Origin: Serratia nematodiphila DZ0503SBS1
GTDB lineage: Bacteria; Pseudomonadota; Gammaproteobacteria; Enterobacterales; Enterobacteriaceae
DNA length: 64,000 bases
Assembly (NCBI RefSeq): GCF_000738675.1
Contig: NZ_JPUX01000001.1
Span: 1,674,001 to 1,738,000, forward strand
Direction: 5' to 3'
Below the pieces are notes generated by a model. The model was not told the origin of the DNA and did no database searches. It saw only the letters and a program-made list of their open reading frames with translations. Below are positions 24,419-42,850 of the stretch, one piece after another (the stretch's first letter is position 1; each line of letters starts with the position of its first letter). Both the position numbers and the translations under genes were made by a program.

Positions 24419-26542
24419 TTAGAAGGCGATCGACCCCTGCACGAAGAAGGTGCGCGGTTCGCCGACGTACTTGCCGAAGTTGTTGTCGTTGGAGCGGGTG
24501 AAGTAGCGCTGATCGAACAGGTTTTTCACCCCGGCACCCAGCGTCAGGTTCGACAGCTGCGGCCCGAAGTTATATTCCCCGCGCATATTCCACACCATGT
24601 AACCGGCGATATTGCCGAACTGGCCATCGGCGCTTTCCTGCGTGATGTACTCCGGCCCGGTGCCCGGCGAATGCTGTTTCGACTGCGCATAACCGTCCAG
24701 ATTCCATACCCAGTTGCCGGTGGCGTAACGTGTACCGACGGTATAGACCTGGCGCGAGTAGAACGGCAGATCTTTACCGGCGAAATCGCCCTTGTCGGTG
24801 CTGGCCTTGGTGTAGGTATAGCTGGTGTAGACGCTGGCGCCGTCGAGCGCGCGATTCAGATCGCTGAGATCGTAGCTGAGTGCCAGCTCGATGCCTTTGT
24901 GCTTGGTGGCACCCATGTTGGTCCAGCCCACGTCGTTGCTGATGTACTGCAGCTGGTTATCGAAGTCGATGTAGAACAGCGTGGCCTCGGCCTTGACTAC
25001 GGTGTCGTCGTAGCGAGTGCCGAATTCATAGGTGTGCGCTTTTTCCGCCGTTAGCCCCGGCGCCGGCTGGTTGCCGTTGCCGCCTTTGGTCAGTTGGAAA
25101 TACTGCATGCTGCCGAACGAAGTGTTGGCGTTGGCGAACAGTTTCCAGGCATCGGACAGGTGGTACATCACGTTCAATGACGGCAGCGGCTCGCTGTAGC
25201 TTTTCTTGCGGCTGATATTGTTGAACGAATCGTCCACGTGGGTGCGGATGCTTTCATAACGCAGGCCCGGCGTGACCGTCCAGTTGCCGACGTTAATGGT
25301 GTCGTCGATATAGAACGCGTTGGCCGCGGTGCCGCCGGAGGTGTGCTGGTAATAATCCGGGGTCTCCGGCGTCGAGCCGATATTCGCCGGGTTATACCAG
25401 GCCGAACGCGACGCCTTTTCATCCATGGTTTCATTCAGATAGCGGTAACCGAGAGTGATCTCGTGCGCCATATCCCAGAAACGGAAGACCTGCGAGTAAC
25501 TTGGTTCGATAGCCCAGGTTGAATAGTGGCGCGGATAGGAGACCATGCGCCGCTGGCCCGCGTTTTTGCCGGTGCCTTCCGATTCGATGTTGCTGCCGCG
25601 GTAGCTGTCGGTGAAGTAGGTCAACACTTCGAACTGTTTGTCGTCTTCCTGATGTTTGTACTTGAACGACATATCCTTGCGGCGGCCTTCGAACTGGTCC
25701 CACGGCCGCGTGGATTGGAACGGGTTTTGCGCGTATTGCGCGGTGCTCAGCCCGCCCGGCATGCCGGCTTTGGCGTCGTAGTAGTGGAAATTGGCCAGCA
25801 GCTCGTCACGATCGGTGAACGCATAACGCGTTTTCAGCATGAAATCGTCGATGTCGGTGTTGTCGTTGTTGTCGCGGTAACCTTGGCCGTGCAGCCCGGA
25901 GTAGAGCAGTTCGGCGCCGAGGCCGTTGTCTGCGGTGCCGCCCATGGAGGCGCTGGTCAGGGTCTTCAGGCCGCCGTGGCTGGCGCCCTGGGTTTGTACG
26001 CTGGCGGTGCCGCCAAACGTTTTGGGAATGTCGCGGGTAACGAAGTTGATCACGCCGCCGACGTTCTGCGGCCCGTAGCGCACCGCCCCGCCGCCGCGCA
26101 CCACGTCCACCGATTGCAGATTACCGATAGACAGCGGGGCCATCGACAGCTGCGGCTGGCCGTAAGGCGCGACCGCCAGCGGGACGCCGTCCATCAGAAT
26201 GGTGGAGCGTGGAGAAAGACGCGAAGTCAGGCCGCGCACGCCGACGTTAAGCGAGATGTCACTGCCGCCGGTGCCGTTGCTGTCGCGCACTTGCACGCCG
26301 GGTACGCCGCGCAGGCTATCGGCGATGGTTTGGTCGCCCTGTTCGTGCATTTGCTGCTGGGTGACGATGGAACGCGCGCCCGGATGGTTGAGCAGCACCG
26401 AACTGGTATCGGGGTTGTCCAGCCAGTTGCCGACGACGGTCACGGTGTCGGTATCGTTCTGAGATGAGTTATCAGTAGCAAGGACAGGGAATGCGACGGC
26501 GATGGAAGCCGTCAGCAGAGAAAGCCGAAAAAGAGGTGACAT
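24419..26542 (-). CDS. TonB-dependent FecA-like ferric-chelate receptor without signalling domain
   Basis: A 707-residue outer-membrane receptor. Signal peptide about 1-22; TonB box D-T-V-T-V-V-G at 32-38; plug domain about 45-165 with I-L-M-D-G-V-P and V-D-V-V-R-G-G-G-A-V-R-Y-G-P-Q; the rest a 22-strand barrel ending in F. Similarity to E. coli FecA is strong over plug and barrel (A-P-Y-G-Q-P-Q-L-S; Q-S-T-R-P; E-S-A-D-G), but the roughly 80-residue periplasmic domain that signals to FecR is missing, and no fecIR genes are near. Ferric citrate is the likely ligand by similarity only. A Fur box lies 53 bases upstream. Confidence 0.87.
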   Translation of the reverse strand: MSPLFRLSLLTASIAVAFPVLATDNSSQNDTDTVTVVGNWLDNPDTSSVLLNHPGARSIVTQQQMHEQGDQTIADSLRGVPGVQVRDSNGTGGSDISLNVGVRGLTSRLSPRSTILMDGVPLAVAPYGQPQLSMAPLSIGNLQSVDVVRGGGAVRYGPQNVGGVINFVTRDIPKTFGGTASVQTQGASHGGLKTLTSASMGGTADNGLGAELLYSGLHGQGYRDNNDNTDIDDFMLKTRYAFTDRDELLANFHYYDAKAGMPGGLSTAQYAQNPFQSTRPWDQFEGRRKDMSFKYKHQEDDKQFEVLTYFTDSYRGSNIESEGTGKNAGQRRMVSYPRHYSTWAIEPSYSQVFRFWDMAHEITLGYRYLNETMDEKASRSAWYNPANIGSTPETPDYYQHTSGGTAANAFYIDDTINVGNWTVTPGLRYESIRTHVDDSFNNISRKKSYSEPLPSLNVMYHLSDAWKLFANANTSFGSMQYFQLTKGGNGNQPAPGLTAEKAHTYEFGTRYDDTVVKAEATLFYIDFDNQLQYISNDVGWTNMGATKHKGIELALSYDLSDLNRALDGASVYTSYTYTKASTDKGDFAGKDLPFYSRQVYTVGTRYATGNWVWNLDGYAQSKQHSPGTGPEYITQESADGQFGNIAGYMVWNMRGEYNFGPQLSNLTLGAGVKNLFDQRYFTRSNDNNFGKYVGEPRTFFVQGSIAF

Positions 26543-35929: not shown

Positions 35930-36844
35930 TCAGTCTTCTGCGATGACGCTACCCAGCGCCGGCTCGATGGTCGCGCCCAGCATGGCGCCGTGCCCTAAGG
36001 CGGGCCATTCCCGATAGCCGACGGTGAAACCGTCGAGCTGCGCCAGCTGTTCGGCCAGCAAATGCGTCGCGTCCGCCGGCAGAGCGGGGCTCTTTACACC
36101 GGGCGGGGCCGCGCGATCGCGTTCCGCCAGGCCAACCCACAGTTGCAGCCTTACCGCCGGCGCCGCGCGCCGTTCCGTCATCCGCTGCGCTTCTTGCAGG
36201 ATCATGCCGTTGCCCCACCACAGCGAGGGTTCCACGGCGATATAGCGCTGAAAGGCGGCAGGATGGGTAAACAACGTGTGCAGAACGAAGAGCCCGCCGT
36301 AGGAGTGCCCCCACAGCGTCTGCCGCTGCGGATCGACCGCCAGTCTGGCGGCGATCGCCGGTTTGATCCGAGTTTCAATCAATTGCAGGAACGCATCCGC
36401 GCCCCCGCCGGCCCGCGGCGGTGTCTTCATGCCTGCCGGCAGAGGGAGCGTATAGTCGTAGGCGCGGCCGGCGGCATCGATGCGCAGATCGTTGTCATAG
36501 CCGATCATGACCAGCACCGGCGGCCGCTTCGCCGCCGCCAATTTGGCCAGTAAGGCGGCGTTCAGCTCCATCAGCACCGCGTTGCCGTCGAGGAAATAAA
36601 CCGTTGGATAGCCGCCCGGCTCAGGCGCCCGATGCGGTTGGGCGATGCGAACGCGGTAATGCCGTCGGCCATCGGCGGAGGTGAAGCGCAGGTCGCTGAA
36701 GCGGTAATCCGCAGAATCGCTATCGGCTACGGTAGTGCCGATCTTGCGTTCCAAATCGGGCCTGGCCAGCACGGAACCCGGCAGCCAAAGGCCGATGGCG
36801 AGCGCCAGAAGCGCAGAGATAAAATGCCGGTTGGACAAAAACAT
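35930..36844 (-). CDS. IroE/Fes-like periplasmic alpha/beta hydrolase
   Basis: A 304-residue esterase (PF00756 type). The N-terminus reads as a signal peptide (hydrophobic 8-25, V-L-A near 27). The nucleophile Ser is in G-H-S-Y-G-G (about 186-191), followed by L-F-V-L-H-T-L-F-T-H-P as in IroE; the catalytic His is probably in G-H-G-A-M-L near the end. IroE and Fes hydrolyse catecholate siderophores such as enterobactin or salmochelin. Other members act on unrelated esters. The start was taken at M-F-L-S-N-R-H; the frame is open 26 codons further. A weak Fur-like sequence lies 120 bases upstream. Confidence 0.78.
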   Translation of the reverse strand: MFLSNRHFISALLALAIGLWLPGSVLARPDLERKIGTTVADSDSADYRFSDLRFTSADGRRHYRVRIAQPHRAPEPGGYPTVYFLDGNAVLMELNAALLAKLAAAKRPPVLVMIGYDNDLRIDAAGRAYDYTLPLPAGMKTPPRAGGGADAFLQLIETRIKPAIAARLAVDPQRQTLWGHSYGGLFVLHTLFTHPAAFQRYIAVEPSLWWGNGMILQEAQRMTERRAAPAVRLQLWVGLAERDRAAPPGVKSPALPADATHLLAEQLAQLDGFTVGYREWPALGHGAMLGATIEPALGSVIAED

Positions 36845-36962
36845 GCGGGTTAACACCTTCGGAAAAAGGCCGATAGTAGCATCCGTTCGCGCCCGGCAAA
36901 AACCTACCTTTAGGGCGGACAAAACCCGGAAGAGGGCCGCCAGTTGCTTTGCCGGGTTAATA

Positions 36963-37115: not shown

Positions 37116-37365
37116 AAAGACACACAACAACACCAGGGAAACTTTCCGGTATCTTATATTATAGCTTCCTATACATATAGAACATTTTATTATAAATATG
37201 TAAGTGATTCTTATTGATCATTTAATATCATTATTTTTCAAATGGTTATGTGTACGGCTGAGGTATTGCGCCTGGGTCGGTTGCGGGCTATCAGGGATAG
37301 GTGGCGGGGTTTTTCTGTAACGGCGGTATGAACAAGCGAGATCATGGGCCCGATACCTTCAGGGC
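37116..37365. other. AT-rich non-coding stretch
   Basis: About 250 bases, much richer in A and T than the surroundings up to about 37245, without an open frame having a ribosome site. Several TATAAT-like hexamers occur (for example near 37157-37170) but no product is evident. Confidence 0.3.
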
Positions 37366-37404
37366 AATACCGGCCGGCAGGTTGCGAACATGCCGGCCGG
37401 TATT
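37366..37404. repeat. Perfect 14-bp inverted repeat
   Basis: AATACCGGCCGGCA and its exact complement are separated by an 11-base loop. No T tract follows on either side. It may end the ATP-grasp transcript (37460) or be a REP-like intergenic palindrome. Confidence 0.6.
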
Positions 37405-37459
37405 CCTCTCGCGCTGGGCACTGCGCCGCCCGATCTTCCCTGTGGGCGTCCGGTGAAAA

Positions 37460-38344
37460 TCAGTGCTGCTGCAGCGTCAGCATCTTGCCAAGCAAAATAT
37501 CGGTCGGCGGCAAAATATCCGTATCCAATCCGGCGGAGGGGGTAAAGGTTAGCTCGCCAAAAATGATGTGGCCTTGCGAGATGTAGAAATCAACGCGAAC
37601 AAACTCAAAGGGCGCCGACAAGCGAGTGGCGTACTCAAACAGTTCATCGTATCCCTCAGGCTTCACGAAAGCGTCTATCTCCTCCTGGCTCAATGCCAGG
37701 CAGTCTTCGCTATAGCAAAGGAACTTGAACTCTTTGTCGAAGAAGTAATATTTTGGCGTCCCGGTATCCCTGCCGACGCACAGCAAGGTGCAGTAAGGCA
37801 CACCGCGGAAACAATAGATTTTATAGTCTTCAGGCCCGTGACCATTGGCCGATTCGATATACTTTTCCCCAATGATCTTTTTTTGTATCCCTTTGTAGTT
37901 GAGTTCTACATAGGTTTTCCAGTAATCGTCTTTCATCCATCCATCGATCAGATGAGAGGCGTTTTTAATGTTCAACGATTGTTTGTTTTGGCAAATTAAA
38001 TTATACCCTGAACCGTGGTTTCCCTTAATGACAAACTTATCAGGCAGCGTTTCCCAGGGTATTTCCTGCACTGAATCACAGGAGAAATACAACTCATTGA
38101 GAATCTCTTCACATCCCTTTTCTTTGATGTACTCTCTCACCGCATATTTATCTGCACATTGAGTCACCAATGCGTTATTACTGTAGTCATTCAACTTAAG
38201 ATGATTTATTTTTTCATTCCAGGTTGAGGGCGACTGTAAATTCAGCGGTTTGCCAAATGCCCTTTTGTATATCAATCTGGCCTTGAACTCGGGGGCTAAT
38301 ACGGCCAGTTGATCTAGAATAAACTTCTTGAATTGTCTCTTCAT
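37460..38344 (-). CDS. TupA-like ATP-grasp ligase
   Basis: A 294-residue protein of the TupA-like ATP-grasp family (PF14305). Landmarks: S-T-W-N-E-K-I-N-H-L-K-L near 40; C-A-D-K-Y-A-V-R-E-Y near 63; K-F-V-I-K-G-N-H-G-S-G-Y-N near 102, the ATP-binding loop; E-D-Y-K-I-Y-C-F near 171; and F-V-R-V-D-F-Y..F-G-E-L-T-F-T-P-S-A-G near 265, the metal-binding end. Relatives couple amino acids to carboxylates, often in polysaccharide or teichuronopeptide synthesis. Here the partner is an N6-hydroxylase, not glycosyltransferases. The ATG at 38344 begins the homology. It lies 50 bases after the hydroxylase gene, so is likely co-transcribed. Confidence 0.82.
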   Translation of the reverse strand: MKRQFKKFILDQLAVLAPEFKARLIYKRAFGKPLNLQSPSTWNEKINHLKLNDYSNNALVTQCADKYAVREYIKEKGCEEILNELYFSCDSVQEIPWETLPDKFVIKGNHGSGYNLICQNKQSLNIKNASHLIDGWMKDDYWKTYVELNYKGIQKKIIGEKYIESANGHGPEDYKIYCFRGVPYCTLLCVGRDTGTPKYYFFDKEFKFLCYSEDCLALSQEEIDAFVKPEGYDELFEYATRLSAPFEFVRVDFYISQGHIIFGELTFTPSAGLDTDILPPTDILLGKMLTLQQH

Positions 38345-38394
38345 ATACGTAATTCCATCAAAGCATAGTGACAATGATTAAGACGTTCTTGTAT

Positions 38395-39690
38395 TTAAAA
38401 CGCGGGCGGTACGCTTTCACTGCGCCATTGAATGGCTGTCGGCGTTGTTCCCAGATCAAATGGCTTGTGGTCTAACGCCCGATTAAGAATGCGGGCCGAT
38501 CGCCAGGCCATCAGGCTCAGCTGAGGATCGGCAATGCCGTGATTATGCATACTGGCGTTCATCGCAAATAAGCAGTTCTCCACTGGGCCTTCCCACTCAA
38601 AGGTAAAGTCCGGGGCTATGCGGTATTCGCCGTCCGCAGTCTTTAACAACCGGTGGGCCAAAGGCTCAAGGAACTCAGGCGTCGCCGATTGATAACCGGT
38701 GGCAAAGATCACCACGTCCGCCTTGAAGGTTTCCTGGCCGTGATCGAGATGATGACGCGTTTCGAGCTGGTAGGCGTTATCCAGCGTGTGTTTCACGGCC
38801 GTCAGCGAACGGCTGGGCAGCAGGCGCACCCATAATTTCTCGCGCAGGACGTCGAAGCGGTGGTACATGGCGCGATAAATCGCCAGCAGCGACTCACTGG
38901 TGATGCCATCTGAGGTCATCTTCTGTTCGGCCAGCATATGCCGCTTGGCCGCGCTGTCCAGTGAGTAAAAGCTCTCGACGTAATCGGGCGTGAAGTATTC
39001 GTTGGCAAAAGCAGCCTCATCGAGCGCATTGTAGTTATTGCGGCGCGATATCCAGTCGAGCTGCGCCGGCTGCCCCCATTCTCCTTTAAACATATTCAGG
39101 AACAGATCTGCGCCGCTCTGGCCGCCGCCGACGATCGCCACGCGTTTGCCGGTCAGATCGGGGTTGCGCAGCATCATTTCGCTGGCATGGAAACAGCGAT
39201 CGCTTTGCATCGTCACGCAATCCGGCAACTTTATTTTCTTGCCTATGCCAATGCTGACGTGTTTGGCGTGGAAGACCTTATTCGAGGTGGTCACCACGAA
39301 CTGGCGCTGCCGATCGTCAAATTCGACCCGCTGAACGTCTTGATTGAATGCCAATGATCCCATCCCGGCGGCGGCCCAGGTGAGGTAATCGGCGAACTCT
39401 TCGCGCGATGCGGTGCGCTGCTCCGTCGTTAGGAAACGATAAAATTTTCTGTTTTTTACCAGATAGTTGAGAAAACTGTAGCGATTGGTTGGGGCAACCG
39501 CGCTCACTAAATCTTTTAAAAAGTTGGTCTGCATACTGCAATCCGCCAGGATCATCCCTGGGTGCCAGGAGAAATGAGGTTTGCGTTCAAGGAACTGTCC
39601 CGTAAATCCCTCTATTTCACTTCCTAAGGCTGCCAGGCTAAGATTCGACGGGCCAAGGCCAATACCGATGATATCCAAACGCTGATTCAT
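38395..39690 (-). CDS. IucD-class L-lysine N6-monooxygenase
   Basis: A 431-residue flavin N-hydroxylase (IucD has 425). FAD motif G-I-G-L-G-P-S-N-L-S near 10-19; substrate region F-S-W-H-P-G-M and M-Q-T-N-F-L-K-D-L-V; NADPH motif V-G-G-G-Q-S-G-A-D near 164; F-A-T-G-Y near 330; and the C-terminal H-G-I-A-D-P-Q-L-S-L-M-A-W-R-S-A-R. Agreement with aerobactin IucD is high along the entire length, so lysine is the likely substrate, hydroxylated on N6. None of iucA, iucB, iucC or iutA is in the window. GGAG lies seven bases before the ATG and a Fur box just upstream. Confidence 0.9.
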   Translation of the reverse strand: MNQRLDIIGIGLGPSNLSLAALGSEIEGFTGQFLERKPHFSWHPGMILADCSMQTNFLKDLVSAVAPTNRYSFLNYLVKNRKFYRFLTTEQRTASREEFADYLTWAAAGMGSLAFNQDVQRVEFDDRQRQFVVTTSNKVFHAKHVSIGIGKKIKLPDCVTMQSDRCFHASEMMLRNPDLTGKRVAIVGGGQSGADLFLNMFKGEWGQPAQLDWISRRNNYNALDEAAFANEYFTPDYVESFYSLDSAAKRHMLAEQKMTSDGITSESLLAIYRAMYHRFDVLREKLWVRLLPSRSLTAVKHTLDNAYQLETRHHLDHGQETFKADVVIFATGYQSATPEFLEPLAHRLLKTADGEYRIAPDFTFEWEGPVENCLFAMNASMHNHGIADPQLSLMAWRSARILNRALDHKPFDLGTTPTAIQWRSESVPPAF

Positions 39691-39703
39691 TAATAAGCTC
39701 CAG

Positions 39704-39722
39704 TATAATGAGAATAATACCC
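39704..39722. promoter_or_regulatory. Fur-box-like site before the lysine hydroxylase gene
   Basis: TATAATGAGAATAATACCC matches 13 of 19 Fur consensus positions with an intact ATAATGA-AAT core, 14 bases before the start codon. It suggests iron repression of the hydroxylase and ligase. Confidence 0.6.
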
Positions 39723-40608: not shown

Positions 40609-41469
40609 TCACGGGAGCTTCAAATTGCTGAGGTAGTCATACTGGGCTTGCGAAATGTCCAGTTCCCCATCGCTGAAAAAGACTTTTATAAACATATCGC
40701 CCTGGCCGACGATATCTACACGTTGGTAAGTTCCCGTCACAAAACGGCGCACGATAGCCTGAATGGCATCGGTATGATTAGCAGGAACTGCATTGTTATC
40801 CGTGACTTTCTGTTCAAAAGTAATAGGGTGCTGTGCCTGAGGATCGGGACTGTATTGTGCGCGCTTGGCTGCGCTTTCGAACTTGAAATCATTAAAGGCG
40901 TTGTGGGTGGAGTTAAACATATCGGCAAGGTTTTTGATATGTGCTGCCATCTGATTCACGACCATGGTTTTATTGGTCACGAAGCGTTTACCCAAATACG
41001 TGCCAGTCACTACCGCGAGCTGGGCGGCATTTCTGCCTAAAATGCTGCCAACGCCAGAACCGGCCCCCGTCCATAATCCCGCGATCAAAACCAGACCGGC
41101 TCCGCCGACGGTACTCGACGCGATATTCTCAAAATGCTGAACACGCGCCCCCATTTGCCATGAGGTTCCGGGAAAAGAGACATTAATGCGGTTATCCAGG
41201 TGATTAATTCTTCCGCCTGGTCGTTGTCCTGACTCAATATTATTGGCGGTCAATCGGCGGTTGTTTTCATCTTTGAGTTCACCCAGCGTAAATGCGATCT
41301 GGCCGGTCTCCGTTTTTGTTAATCGAAAGACTTCTTCTGGTGACAGAGACCTGACGAGGATCAGCGCCTCATTCAAAATCTCACGGGTCAAAAAGTTGGC
41401 TGACACCCGATTATTCGATTCGTGTTGCGATGTCAGAGCTAAAATTTCATGTGACTTAGGAAATGCCAT
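40609..41469 (-). CDS. Unrecognised protein downstream of two hcp genes, candidate T6SS effector
   Basis: A 286-residue protein I cannot assign. Residues 1-115 are mixed helical with E-V-F-R-L-T-K-T-E-T-G-Q. Residues about 118-160 are hydrophobic and glycine-rich (T-V-G-G-A-G-L-V-L-I-A-G-L-W-T-G-A-G-S-G-V-G), like a glycine-zipper membrane segment. Residues 165-286 are hydrophilic and end in a small beta-rich region. No signal peptide. It lies 36 bases after the second hcp gene on the same strand. By context it could be an Hcp-carried pore-forming or membrane-active effector, or an Hcp adaptor. No immunity gene is evident beside it. Base composition is lower in GC than the core genes. Confidence 0.6.
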   Translation of the reverse strand: MAFPKSHEILALTSQHESNNRVSANFLTREILNEALILVRSLSPEEVFRLTKTETGQIAFTLGELKDENNRRLTANNIESGQRPGGRINHLDNRINVSFPGTSWQMGARVQHFENIASSTVGGAGLVLIAGLWTGAGSGVGSILGRNAAQLAVVTGTYLGKRFVTNKTMVVNQMAAHIKNLADMFNSTHNAFNDFKFESAAKRAQYSPDPQAQHPITFEQKVTDNNAVPANHTDAIQAIVRRFVTGTYQRVDIVGQGDMFIKVFFSDGELDISQAQYDYLSNLKLP

Positions 41470-41505
41470 AATCCCCCCGCCATTACGATATGCACCGTAA
41501 TGTGA

Positions 41506-41988
41506 TTAGCTTTCTTTATTTTGCTTAATGTCCCAGCCCATCTGCACCGAAGCTCCTTTATTGCCTTGCTTCGCTTGCTCCCAGTATTCCATCGATACTT
41601 TACCGGCCTGAAAAGAGTATTCAATGCCTAGCGTGGAACCGTGCTCGACACCGATGAAGTCGGTATGAGTCACTAATACATCTTCCAGAGTAATGCGGGT
41701 ATATTCCACTTCCTGCCCACCGGCTTTGCAAAGCGACAACTGCACCTTGGCGAGGTGTTTACCGGCCGAACAGTATTTCAATAAGGCAGGTGTCGCTTTA
41801 TCTATCAGAGCCTGTACGGTCAGATCGCGAAAATTCACTTTACCCGTACCGCCGCCGCCGCCAACGGCCATATTGCCAGGCTGCCGCGCGCCCCAGTTAA
41901 AGGAGAAGACATCGATCCATTGCTTGTGATTCGCATTTTTCGATTCGCCATTAATGCCTTCAACTTTTAAAAACATATCCATTGCCAT
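41506..41988 (-). CDS. Hcp family type VI secretion tube protein, paralogue 2
   Basis: A 160-residue Hcp1-family protein (M-D-M-F-L-K-V-E-G-I-N-G-E-S at the start; F-S-F-N-W-G-A near 29; E-Y-S-F-Q-A-G-K-V-S-M-E-Y-W-E near 123). Hcp rings form the T6SS inner tube and carry small effectors in the lumen. No other T6SS gene is in the window, so this is an orphan hcp served by a machine elsewhere. It follows the first hcp copy by 47 bases; the two share most of their sequence, with the loop after the G-G-G-G-G run best conserved. GGTGAT precedes the start. Confidence 0.9.
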   Translation of the reverse strand: MAMDMFLKVEGINGESKNANHKQWIDVFSFNWGARQPGNMAVGGGGGTGKVNFRDLTVQALIDKATPALLKYCSAGKHLAKVQLSLCKAGGQEVEYTRITLEDVLVTHTDFIGVEHGSTLGIEYSFQAGKVSMEYWEQAKQGNKGASVQMGWDIKQNKES

Positions 41989-42035
41989 GATTTTATCACC
42001 CGATCATTAACGTATTGTTAGGTGCCCGAATGCAC

Positions 42036-42518
42036 TTAGCTCTCTTTATTCTGCTTGATATCCCAACCAGATTTGCTTTCAGCGCCTTTAGTGCCGCTGC
42101 TGCCTTGTTCCCAGTAACTCATGGTGACTTTTGACGCCTGGAAGGCGTAATCAACCAGGATCGCATCATTTTGACCGACACCATTAAAATCGGTTTGCGT
42201 CACCAGCACGTCTTCGAGAACGATTTTGGAATATTCCACCTGGTTGCCACCCGCTTTGCATACGGAAAGCTCAATTTTCGCGACATGTTTTCCACTGGAA
42301 CAATATTTAAGAATGGCGGGTGTAGATTTGTCGATAAGCGCTTGAATACGGAGGTCTTGATAATTCACTTTCCCGGAACCGCCTCCACCGCCGACAGCCA
42401 TATTTCCTGGCTGTGAAGCGCCCCAGTTAAACGAAAGTACGTCGGTCCATCCTTTATGATTGCTGTCTTGGGACTCGCCCGTCATTCCTTCAACTTTCAT
42501 ATACATATCAATTGCCAT
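42036..42518 (-). CDS. Hcp family type VI secretion tube protein, paralogue 1
   Basis: A 160-residue Hcp1-family protein, the first gene of the cassette. Start taken at M-A-I-D-M-Y-M-K-V-E-G, which aligns with the start of the second copy; an ATG six codons earlier overlaps a GGAGG that fits the internal start better. Differences from the second copy lie mainly at 85-125, the strands facing lumen or neighbours, so the two may carry different cargo or form mixed rings. Both end in W-D-I-K-Q-N-K-E-S. Confidence 0.9.
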   Translation of the reverse strand: MAIDMYMKVEGMTGESQDSNHKGWTDVLSFNWGASQPGNMAVGGGGGSGKVNYQDLRIQALIDKSTPAILKYCSSGKHVAKIELSVCKAGGNQVEYSKIVLEDVLVTQTDFNGVGQNDAILVDYAFQASKVTMSYWEQGSSGTKGAESKSGWDIKQNKES

Positions 42519-42850
42519 TGTCGCCGGATCCTCCATTATTTCGCGTTGGCAGCGGAATAGGATAAAAATGTCTTATCAATGGGTAAAATTCAGCATAGCC
42601 TTATATGAATGAATTAACAGCAATGTCGTTTTTATTCGGAATGTTCCTAGTTTTAATTCAATATGTTGTGATTTAACAAAGTGATACCTTTAGAGGTTCG
42701 TGGCTATATTCCATCACCGAATGACAATAAAAAACACTCGATAAACGGAGAATATGAGTGCGCTCGTTTGACGCGTGGAGGATTGGGGGCGGGCCTTTTG
42801 AGAAAGTGCACCTGTAATGCGAAATTGCACATCCATCGGATGATGCGGTG
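42519..42850. other. Promoter region of the hcp cassette and flank
   Basis: No gene seen. The part next to hcp is AT-rich and should hold its promoter. The second copy of the 16-base repeat lies at 42652-42667. Confidence 0.35.
42652..42667. repeat. 16-bp direct repeat, copy 2
   Basis: TTTAATTCAATATGTT, same orientation as 40206-40221. Confidence 0.4.

Follow-up and report, generated by a model that had tools for sequence, protein, structure and literature searches.

A 64,000-nucleotide stretch of the genome of Serratia nematodiphila DZ0503SBS1 (contig NZ_JPUX01000001.1, positions 1,674,001 to 1,738,000 of the forward strand; hereafter the window) carries on its minus strand a two-gene pair composed of a predicted IucD-type L-lysine N6-hydroxylase and a predicted TupA-like ATP-grasp amidoligase. 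We propose, with a probability of roughly 45%, that N6-hydroxylysine is formed by the hydroxylase and then coupled by the ligase to a carboxylate, which would most likely be a uronic acid of an envelope glycan and less likely a small acid. The hydroxylase, derived from the kind of enzyme that serves aerobactin biosynthesis, would have changed its job in an ancestor of the Serratia species that have the pair. Both enzymes are of known families, but no description of their combination, without partners of the non-ribosomal peptide synthetase (NRPS) type or of the NRPS-independent siderophore (NIS) synthetase type beside it, was found in the open-access papers searched, which omit most subscription journals. 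The pair is preserved in most Serratia genomes compared, the hydroxylase forms a clade of its own and is retained where no NIS synthetase exists, and the relatives of the ligase often adjoin genes of glycan assembly.

The gene pair and its layout

The host genome is a Serratia genome of 5.2 Mb in 2 contigs, and the closest named ligase is that of S. ureilytica with 94% identity. The pair and its flanking elements are located in the window as follows.

38395..39690, minus strand: first gene of the pair, predicted IucD-type L-lysine N6-hydroxylase, 431 amino acids, ATG start, family PF13434
37460..38344, minus strand: second gene, predicted TupA-like ATP-grasp amidoligase, 294 amino acids, conserved ATG, family PF14305
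39704..39722, no strand assigned: Fur-like site, 13/19 by consensus score, with 13 bases between the site and the hydroxylase ATG
37361..37409, no strand assigned: inverted repeat directly past the ligase stop, with 23-nucleotide arms that are 87% complementary and a 3-nucleotide loop

A first-pass annotation, made from the letters of this DNA, had described a gene matching aerobactin IucD over its whole length and, 50 bases later, a TupA-like ligase, and both descriptions are borne out. The hydroxylase is 57.1% identical to the annotated iucD product of E. coli over 98% of its length and 60.1% identical to that of K. pneumoniae over 99%, and it matches the Pfam family PF13434 with 358.5 bits at residues 4-334 (cut-off 21.3), while the ligase matches PF14305 (ATPgrasp_TupA) with 138.4 bits (cut-off 25). 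The open reading frame listed for the ligase, 37460-38374, begins with TTG; the ATG common to its relatives lies at 38344, which gives the 294-residue protein, and the gap of 50 bases to the hydroxylase is counted from this ATG. From the spacing and the conservation described below we infer that both genes are on one transcript. The inverted repeat is a possible end of this transcript; it has no T run and was not called by the terminator scan. The promoter and terminator scan found nothing at the ends of the pair on its strand, and the two promoter-like and two terminator-like sites that it found are fewer than the shuffle means of 5.7 and 4.4, respectively.

Conservation of the pair across Serratia

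Both genes were searched for in 30 Serratia genomes. A ligase orthologue is present in 24, namely 12 of the marcescens type (87-100% identity) and 12 of the plymuthica type (76-80%), the six genomes without it being two of full size and four small ones, and hydroxylase orthologues occur in the same 24 genomes. In 22 of these 24 both genes are whole, with a gap of 29-78 bases; the exceptions are G043, where a contig end falls at the start of the ligase, and G022, in which both genes are broken. The pair is thus not confined to the source strain, a restriction that would have spoken against the reading of the first-pass annotation.

The pair occupies three chromosomal positions in Serratia. In the marcescens type it adjoins a block of esterase, GNAT, LuxR and permease genes, at least part of which is common to all 12 genomes read. 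In the plymuthica type it lies in another region and at two nearby positions (11 of 12 genomes read), either between an amylase-like and a GGDEF gene (six genomes) or a few genes further on, past the gene of a pyridoxal-phosphate enzyme (five genomes), so that either the two genes have moved together more than once or the surrounding genes have been rearranged. The loci that fall a few genes apart in this same region are L036, L047, L050, L088 and L090 on the one hand and L040, L089, L092-L095 and L179-L181 on the other.

In six marcescens-group comparisons the hydroxylase has a ratio of non-synonymous to synonymous divergence (dN/dS) of 0.041-0.069, and the ligase one of 0.043-0.064; in four plymuthica-type comparisons the dS of the ligase is saturated throughout, and that of the hydroxylase is saturated in two and amounts to 2.2-2.7 in the other two. 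Both genes are under strong purifying selection. Conservation, selection and the several positions together mark the pair as an old, selected unit that was kept together while changing place. When the window is compared with six other marcescens-group genomes, the dS of the ligase is about 1.5 to 5 times that of the hydroxylase (0.57-1.12 vs 0.19-0.44), which suggests allelic exchange at the ligase.

Outside Serratia, the best 80 of 370 confirmed ligase relatives were kept and 67 of their loci were read with up to 10 kb a side; no hydroxylase lies beside the ligase relative in any of these 67 loci. A wider search, in which a match counted only if its E-value was 1e-60 or lower, covered two samples drawn evenly from larger groups, 394 genomes from the order and 198 from the family. 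In this search the ligase had matches in three non-Serratia genomes at 48-52% identity, and no hydroxylase was present in the short flanks of these three matches. The best row of a tblastn search against plasmids reaches 48.1%, and three sister proteins (P0007-P0009) are 63-66% identical to the ligase.

Descent and likely substrate of the hydroxylase

A tree was built of 46 sequences with a third Serratia paralogue as the root, and in it the hydroxylases of the pair form one clade (14 rows, support 100/100). This clade lies inside a 36-row group (support 94/90, with an unresolved inner order) that contains IucD-type proteins of Serratia, Yersinia, Xenorhabdus and Cronobacter; those of Salmonella and Pantoea that carry the name fall outside the group. 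The hydroxylase is 74-77% identical to the IucD of Serratia aerobactin clusters and to the Yersinia IucD-type proteins. A comparison of 20 pair-type with 24 IucD-type sequences separates the two by F15S, P49A and E388D without exception, and by E280D and A288V with one exception each.

Two residues that we take to hold the carboxylate side of an amino-acid substrate, K59 in the motif FLKDLV and N230 in FxNE, are kept in 20 of 20 pair-type hydroxylases. K and N stand at the aligned positions in the ornithine hydroxylase 3s5w, presumably PvdA, and in MbtG, which acts on lysine; the alignment has S or A for K, and no N, in 6xbb and 5o8p, which we take to be the cadaverine enzyme DesB and DfoA, and in the putrescine hydroxylase 7us3. 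A hydroxylase of diamines such as cadaverine or putrescine was rejected, as K59 and N230 match the pattern of 3s5w and MbtG. Family, residues and phylogeny together lead us to strongly expect that the substrate is L-lysine, hydroxylated at N6.

The third paralogue, about 50% identical to the hydroxylase, occurs in 14 of the 30 Serratia genomes. At the loci L042 (9153-10466), L038, L041, L046 and L049 it adjoins a 4'-phosphopantetheinyl-transferase-like gene, an FMN reductase gene and one further gene, and in four of these loci mnmE flanks it on the opposite side; the neighbours are named by profile in L042 and by similarity elsewhere. Three sequences of this paralogue that were checked carry Q in place of the lysine-type K59.

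Separation from aerobactin and other NIS siderophores

Aerobactin formation needs, besides IucD, the acetyltransferase IucB and the NIS synthetases IucA and IucC. A search for the IucA/IucC family (PF04183) gave no match in the window's own genome, whereas the E. coli control matched; the IucB-type family PF13523 has two matches distant from the pair, one that scores 27.8 bits against a cut-off of 27 and one that falls short of it. The lack of IucA/IucC partners, noted in the first-pass annotation for the window, therefore extends to the whole genome, and an iucABC set elsewhere that lacks its own iucD is ruled out by the same result. Across the 30 Serratia genomes, PF04183 is found in 15: all 12 of the plymuthica type, both full-size genomes without the pair, and G014; it is absent from 11 of the 12 marcescens-type genomes that bear the pair, the window's included. 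The 12 plymuthica-type genomes each have two NIS synthetases and, beside them, a separate iucD (cluster content scanned in L037). Serratia aerobactin-type IucD, the relative from the tree that was read in context and 75-77% identical to the hydroxylase of the window, is flanked in four loci, in one order, by two large genes, a third gene and a gene of the TonB-receptor type; in L037 the order is IucA/C, GNAT acetyltransferase, IucA/C, IucD and TonB receptor, with a divergent gene of the major facilitator superfamily. As the hydroxylase is kept in genomes without any NIS synthetase, and beside a separate iucD where synthetases exist, it does not appear to serve aerobactin. A relic of an aerobactin cluster was rejected on the missing PF04183 in the genome, the 11 marcescens-type genomes free of NIS synthetases and the separate clade in the tree.

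G014 carries a carboxylate-type NIS set (L171, 1072-11063) on the strand opposite to the pair, at a distance of about 3.4 kb and in a strain-variable stretch. It comprises an FslA-like synthetase, an SbnA-like gene, a decarboxylase-like gene, an exporter, a TonB receptor and a binding protein, and the matches lie below the curated cut-offs for those names except for the general TonB receptor model.

The ligase and its relatives in glycan loci

ATP-grasp ligases form amides of carboxylates via an acyl phosphate. The predicted structure of the ligase shows a confident ATP-grasp fold and aligns, after VIA-align re-ranking, to amide-forming ATP-grasp ligases. Its relatives often stand among genes of glycan assembly: the 123 immediate neighbours of 65 non-Serratia ligase relatives include 31 of the Wzx type and 15 family-2 glycosyltransferases (GT2), and the genome of the window has another ligase of the TupA-like family in a glycan cluster. 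Clade-specific changes of the ligase are found at residues 42, 108, 159 and 206, and those at 108, 159 and 206 are common to the three sister proteins P0007-P0009.

Seven of the 123 neighbours match alanine dehydrogenase/PNT domains. In the distant ligase relatives L096 (7528-8502), L119, L124 and L159, the gene after the ligase encodes a short alanine-dehydrogenase-like protein of about 320 amino acids, which is perhaps another partner that modifies an amino acid. An analogy to opine-type enzymes, such as carboxyethyl-amino-acid synthases, is a lead only, and no profile or structure match named such enzymes.

The C-terminal TupA-like domain of C. jejuni Cj1438 is reported to amidate glucuronic acid (PMC11800379). 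Uronic acids of O-antigens that carry lysine in Proteus mirabilis O27 and carboxyethyl-lysine in Providencia rustigianii O14 as amides are listed in a review (PMC10609480).

The Fur-like site

A score of 13/19 is weak when taken alone, as 15 positions in the 64-kb window score at least 13, and dinucleotide shuffles reach 13 in 31 of 2000 cases for 60 upstream bases, 47 of 2000 for 100 and 91 of 2000 for 150. Among the 50 window genes called by script (longest open reading frames of at least 150 amino acids, 100 bases upstream), three have a score of at least 13 upstream, and the hydroxylase ranks third after an ExbB-family gene (15/19) and a TonB-dependent receptor (14/19). Genes for ExbB and TonB receptors are usual targets of Fur. 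The two top sites lie upstream of the ExbB-family gene (10727) and upstream of the TonB receptor gene (24419-26542), which adjoins a gene for a periplasmic binding protein.

In the 11 of 12 marcescens-group loci compared, the site before the hydroxylase scores 13/19 in ten and 12/19 in one, whereas none of 10 plymuthica-type loci has a score of at least 13 within 130 bases and one has 13 at -196; four aerobactin-cluster intergenic regions, taken as a control, score 14. Two overlapping 13/19 matches (38364 and 38370) are located inside the gap between hydroxylase and ligase, which indicates that such scores are common in A+T-rich spacers. Control by Fur is plausible from the sequence in the marcescens group and unsupported in the plymuthica group. 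The site that had been called a probable Fur box is thus present, ranks high in the window and is kept in the marcescens group, but its absence from the plymuthica-type promoters and the weakness of the score taken alone limit the claim.

Proposed function and alternative explanations

The proposed route would start with the conversion of L-lysine to N6-hydroxy-L-lysine by the hydroxylase with FAD, NADPH and O2, a step expected because of family, residues and phylogeny. The ligase, judged by its fold and the precedent of its family, would then activate a carboxylate as an acyl phosphate and join it to an amino group of N6-hydroxylysine, and the two genes would form a self-contained operon. A glycan uronic acid seems the most likely acceptor, because ligase relatives often adjoin flippases and glycosyltransferases and because the Cj1438 domain is reported to amidate glucuronic acid. 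If the N6-hydroxyl nitrogen attacks, the product would be a hydroxamate, made without an acetyltransferase or NIS synthetases.

Several points weigh against this proposal. Its main weakness is that the glycan acceptor is guessed from relatives, since no glycan gene travels with the pair: the scanned neighbours include no glycan-assembly gene at either region. We recognised no gene for a dedicated exporter or receptor next to the pair, and an N-hydroxylamine left free on a glycan would be reactive. No hydroxylysine-bearing bacterial glycan was found among the titles and abstract openings of the open-access papers searched. The three best sequence matches of the hydroxylase in the PDB are the diamine-type enzymes 6xbb, 5o8p (named for desferrioxamine biosynthesis) and 7us3. 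The ligase is about 40-55% identical to its non-Serratia relatives (best 80 of 370) and, beside the invariant residues K107 and E160, has G where they have C, at positions 108 and 159, so that a new substrate is possible.

The alternative that survives best, although we consider it somewhat unlikely, is a small soluble hydroxamate, in which N6-hydroxylysine would be combined with citrate, succinate, a fatty acid or an amino acid to give a minimal iron chelator or a signal, which would be released and then imported by the general routes for hydroxamates. The kinship of the hydroxylase to a siderophore enzyme, the Fur-like site as the third among the window genes and its preservation in the marcescens group, and the lack of glycan-assembly genes among the scanned neighbours all fit this explanation. 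It is countered by the lack of a recognised receptor, exporter or binding protein beside the pair, by the missing Fur-like site in the plymuthica-type group, and by the Cj1438 domain, the one family member whose reported activity was considered here, which is reported to act on a glycan. Family precedent leans towards a glycan product, the second choice of the first-pass annotation. That earlier interpretation is supported in part, by an IucD relative outside any aerobactin set, by a pairing kept across most of the genus and by an amidoligase of a type with relatives often in glycan loci; its link to Fur is weaker than it was put there.

A bolder variant, which we hold to be rather improbable, is an iron-controlled hydroxamate made by a new route, in which the ATP-grasp ligase would acylate the N6-hydroxyl nitrogen directly and so replace both the CoA acyltransferase and the NIS synthetases; its product could be an iron-binding glycan or a minimal chelator from two enzymes.

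Two independent genes are distinctly improbable. The hydroxylase would then feed another consumer or be a relic, the ligase would add an ordinary amino acid to a glycan, and their adjacency would be incidental. The other ligase of the family in the glycan cluster of this genome indicates that such ligases can act without a hydroxylase, the G+C contents of 54.6% for the hydroxylase and 44.3% for the ligase perhaps reflect different origins, and the synonymous divergence of the ligase exceeds that of the hydroxylase between marcescens-group genomes. However, the genes remain adjacent in 22 of 24 genomes and at three positions, G022 as the sole genome with a break has both genes broken, and both are under strong purifying selection. 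That the hydroxylase is a back-up IucD for aerobactin or another NIS siderophore is very improbable despite its 74-77% identity to IucD-type proteins and the NIS cluster near the pair in G014, as 11 of the 12 marcescens-type genomes lack NIS synthetases, each of the 12 plymuthica-type genomes has an iucD of its own in a cluster, and the G014 cluster, on the other strand of a strain-variable stretch, is rhizoferrin- or staphyloferrin-like by matches below curated cut-offs.

If the proposed joining of N6-hydroxylysine to a carboxylate is true, an enzyme of the siderophore kind has been re-wired to a glycan-type ligase in a genus with opportunistic pathogens, and there is a two-enzyme route to hydroxylysine conjugates that would escape genome searches for siderophores based on NIS synthetases or NRPS. 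As only two enzymes have to be purified, the chemistry is directly testable.

Neighbouring genes

Between a tRNA-Phe gene and the pair, at 40609-42536, lie two Hcp genes and a gene of 286 amino acids without a Pfam match; this stretch is present in some marcescens-group genomes and replaced by other cargo in others. Downstream of the pair, at 35930-36922, a PF00756 esterase weakly similar to enterochelin esterase is found in 11 of 12 marcescens-group loci and was not seen at the plymuthica-type positions of the pair.

Comparison with known systems

The hydroxylase resembles aerobactin IucD in its whole-length similarity and in the same amino-acid-type pocket residues, but differs from it by its own clade, by F15S, P49A and E388D, by a genome without IucA/IucC and by its ATP-grasp partner. 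The ligase shares with TupA-like amidoligases, such as the C-terminal domain of Cj1438, the PF14305 match and the predicted ATP-grasp fold; it is set apart from them by its location outside a glycan cluster and its partnership with a lysine hydroxylase. The amidated uronic acids of O-antigens are products known from their structure and are compared with the pair by the kind of product alone: lysine, plain or modified at its side chain, in amide linkage to a uronic acid is the kind of product that would be expected for the pair.

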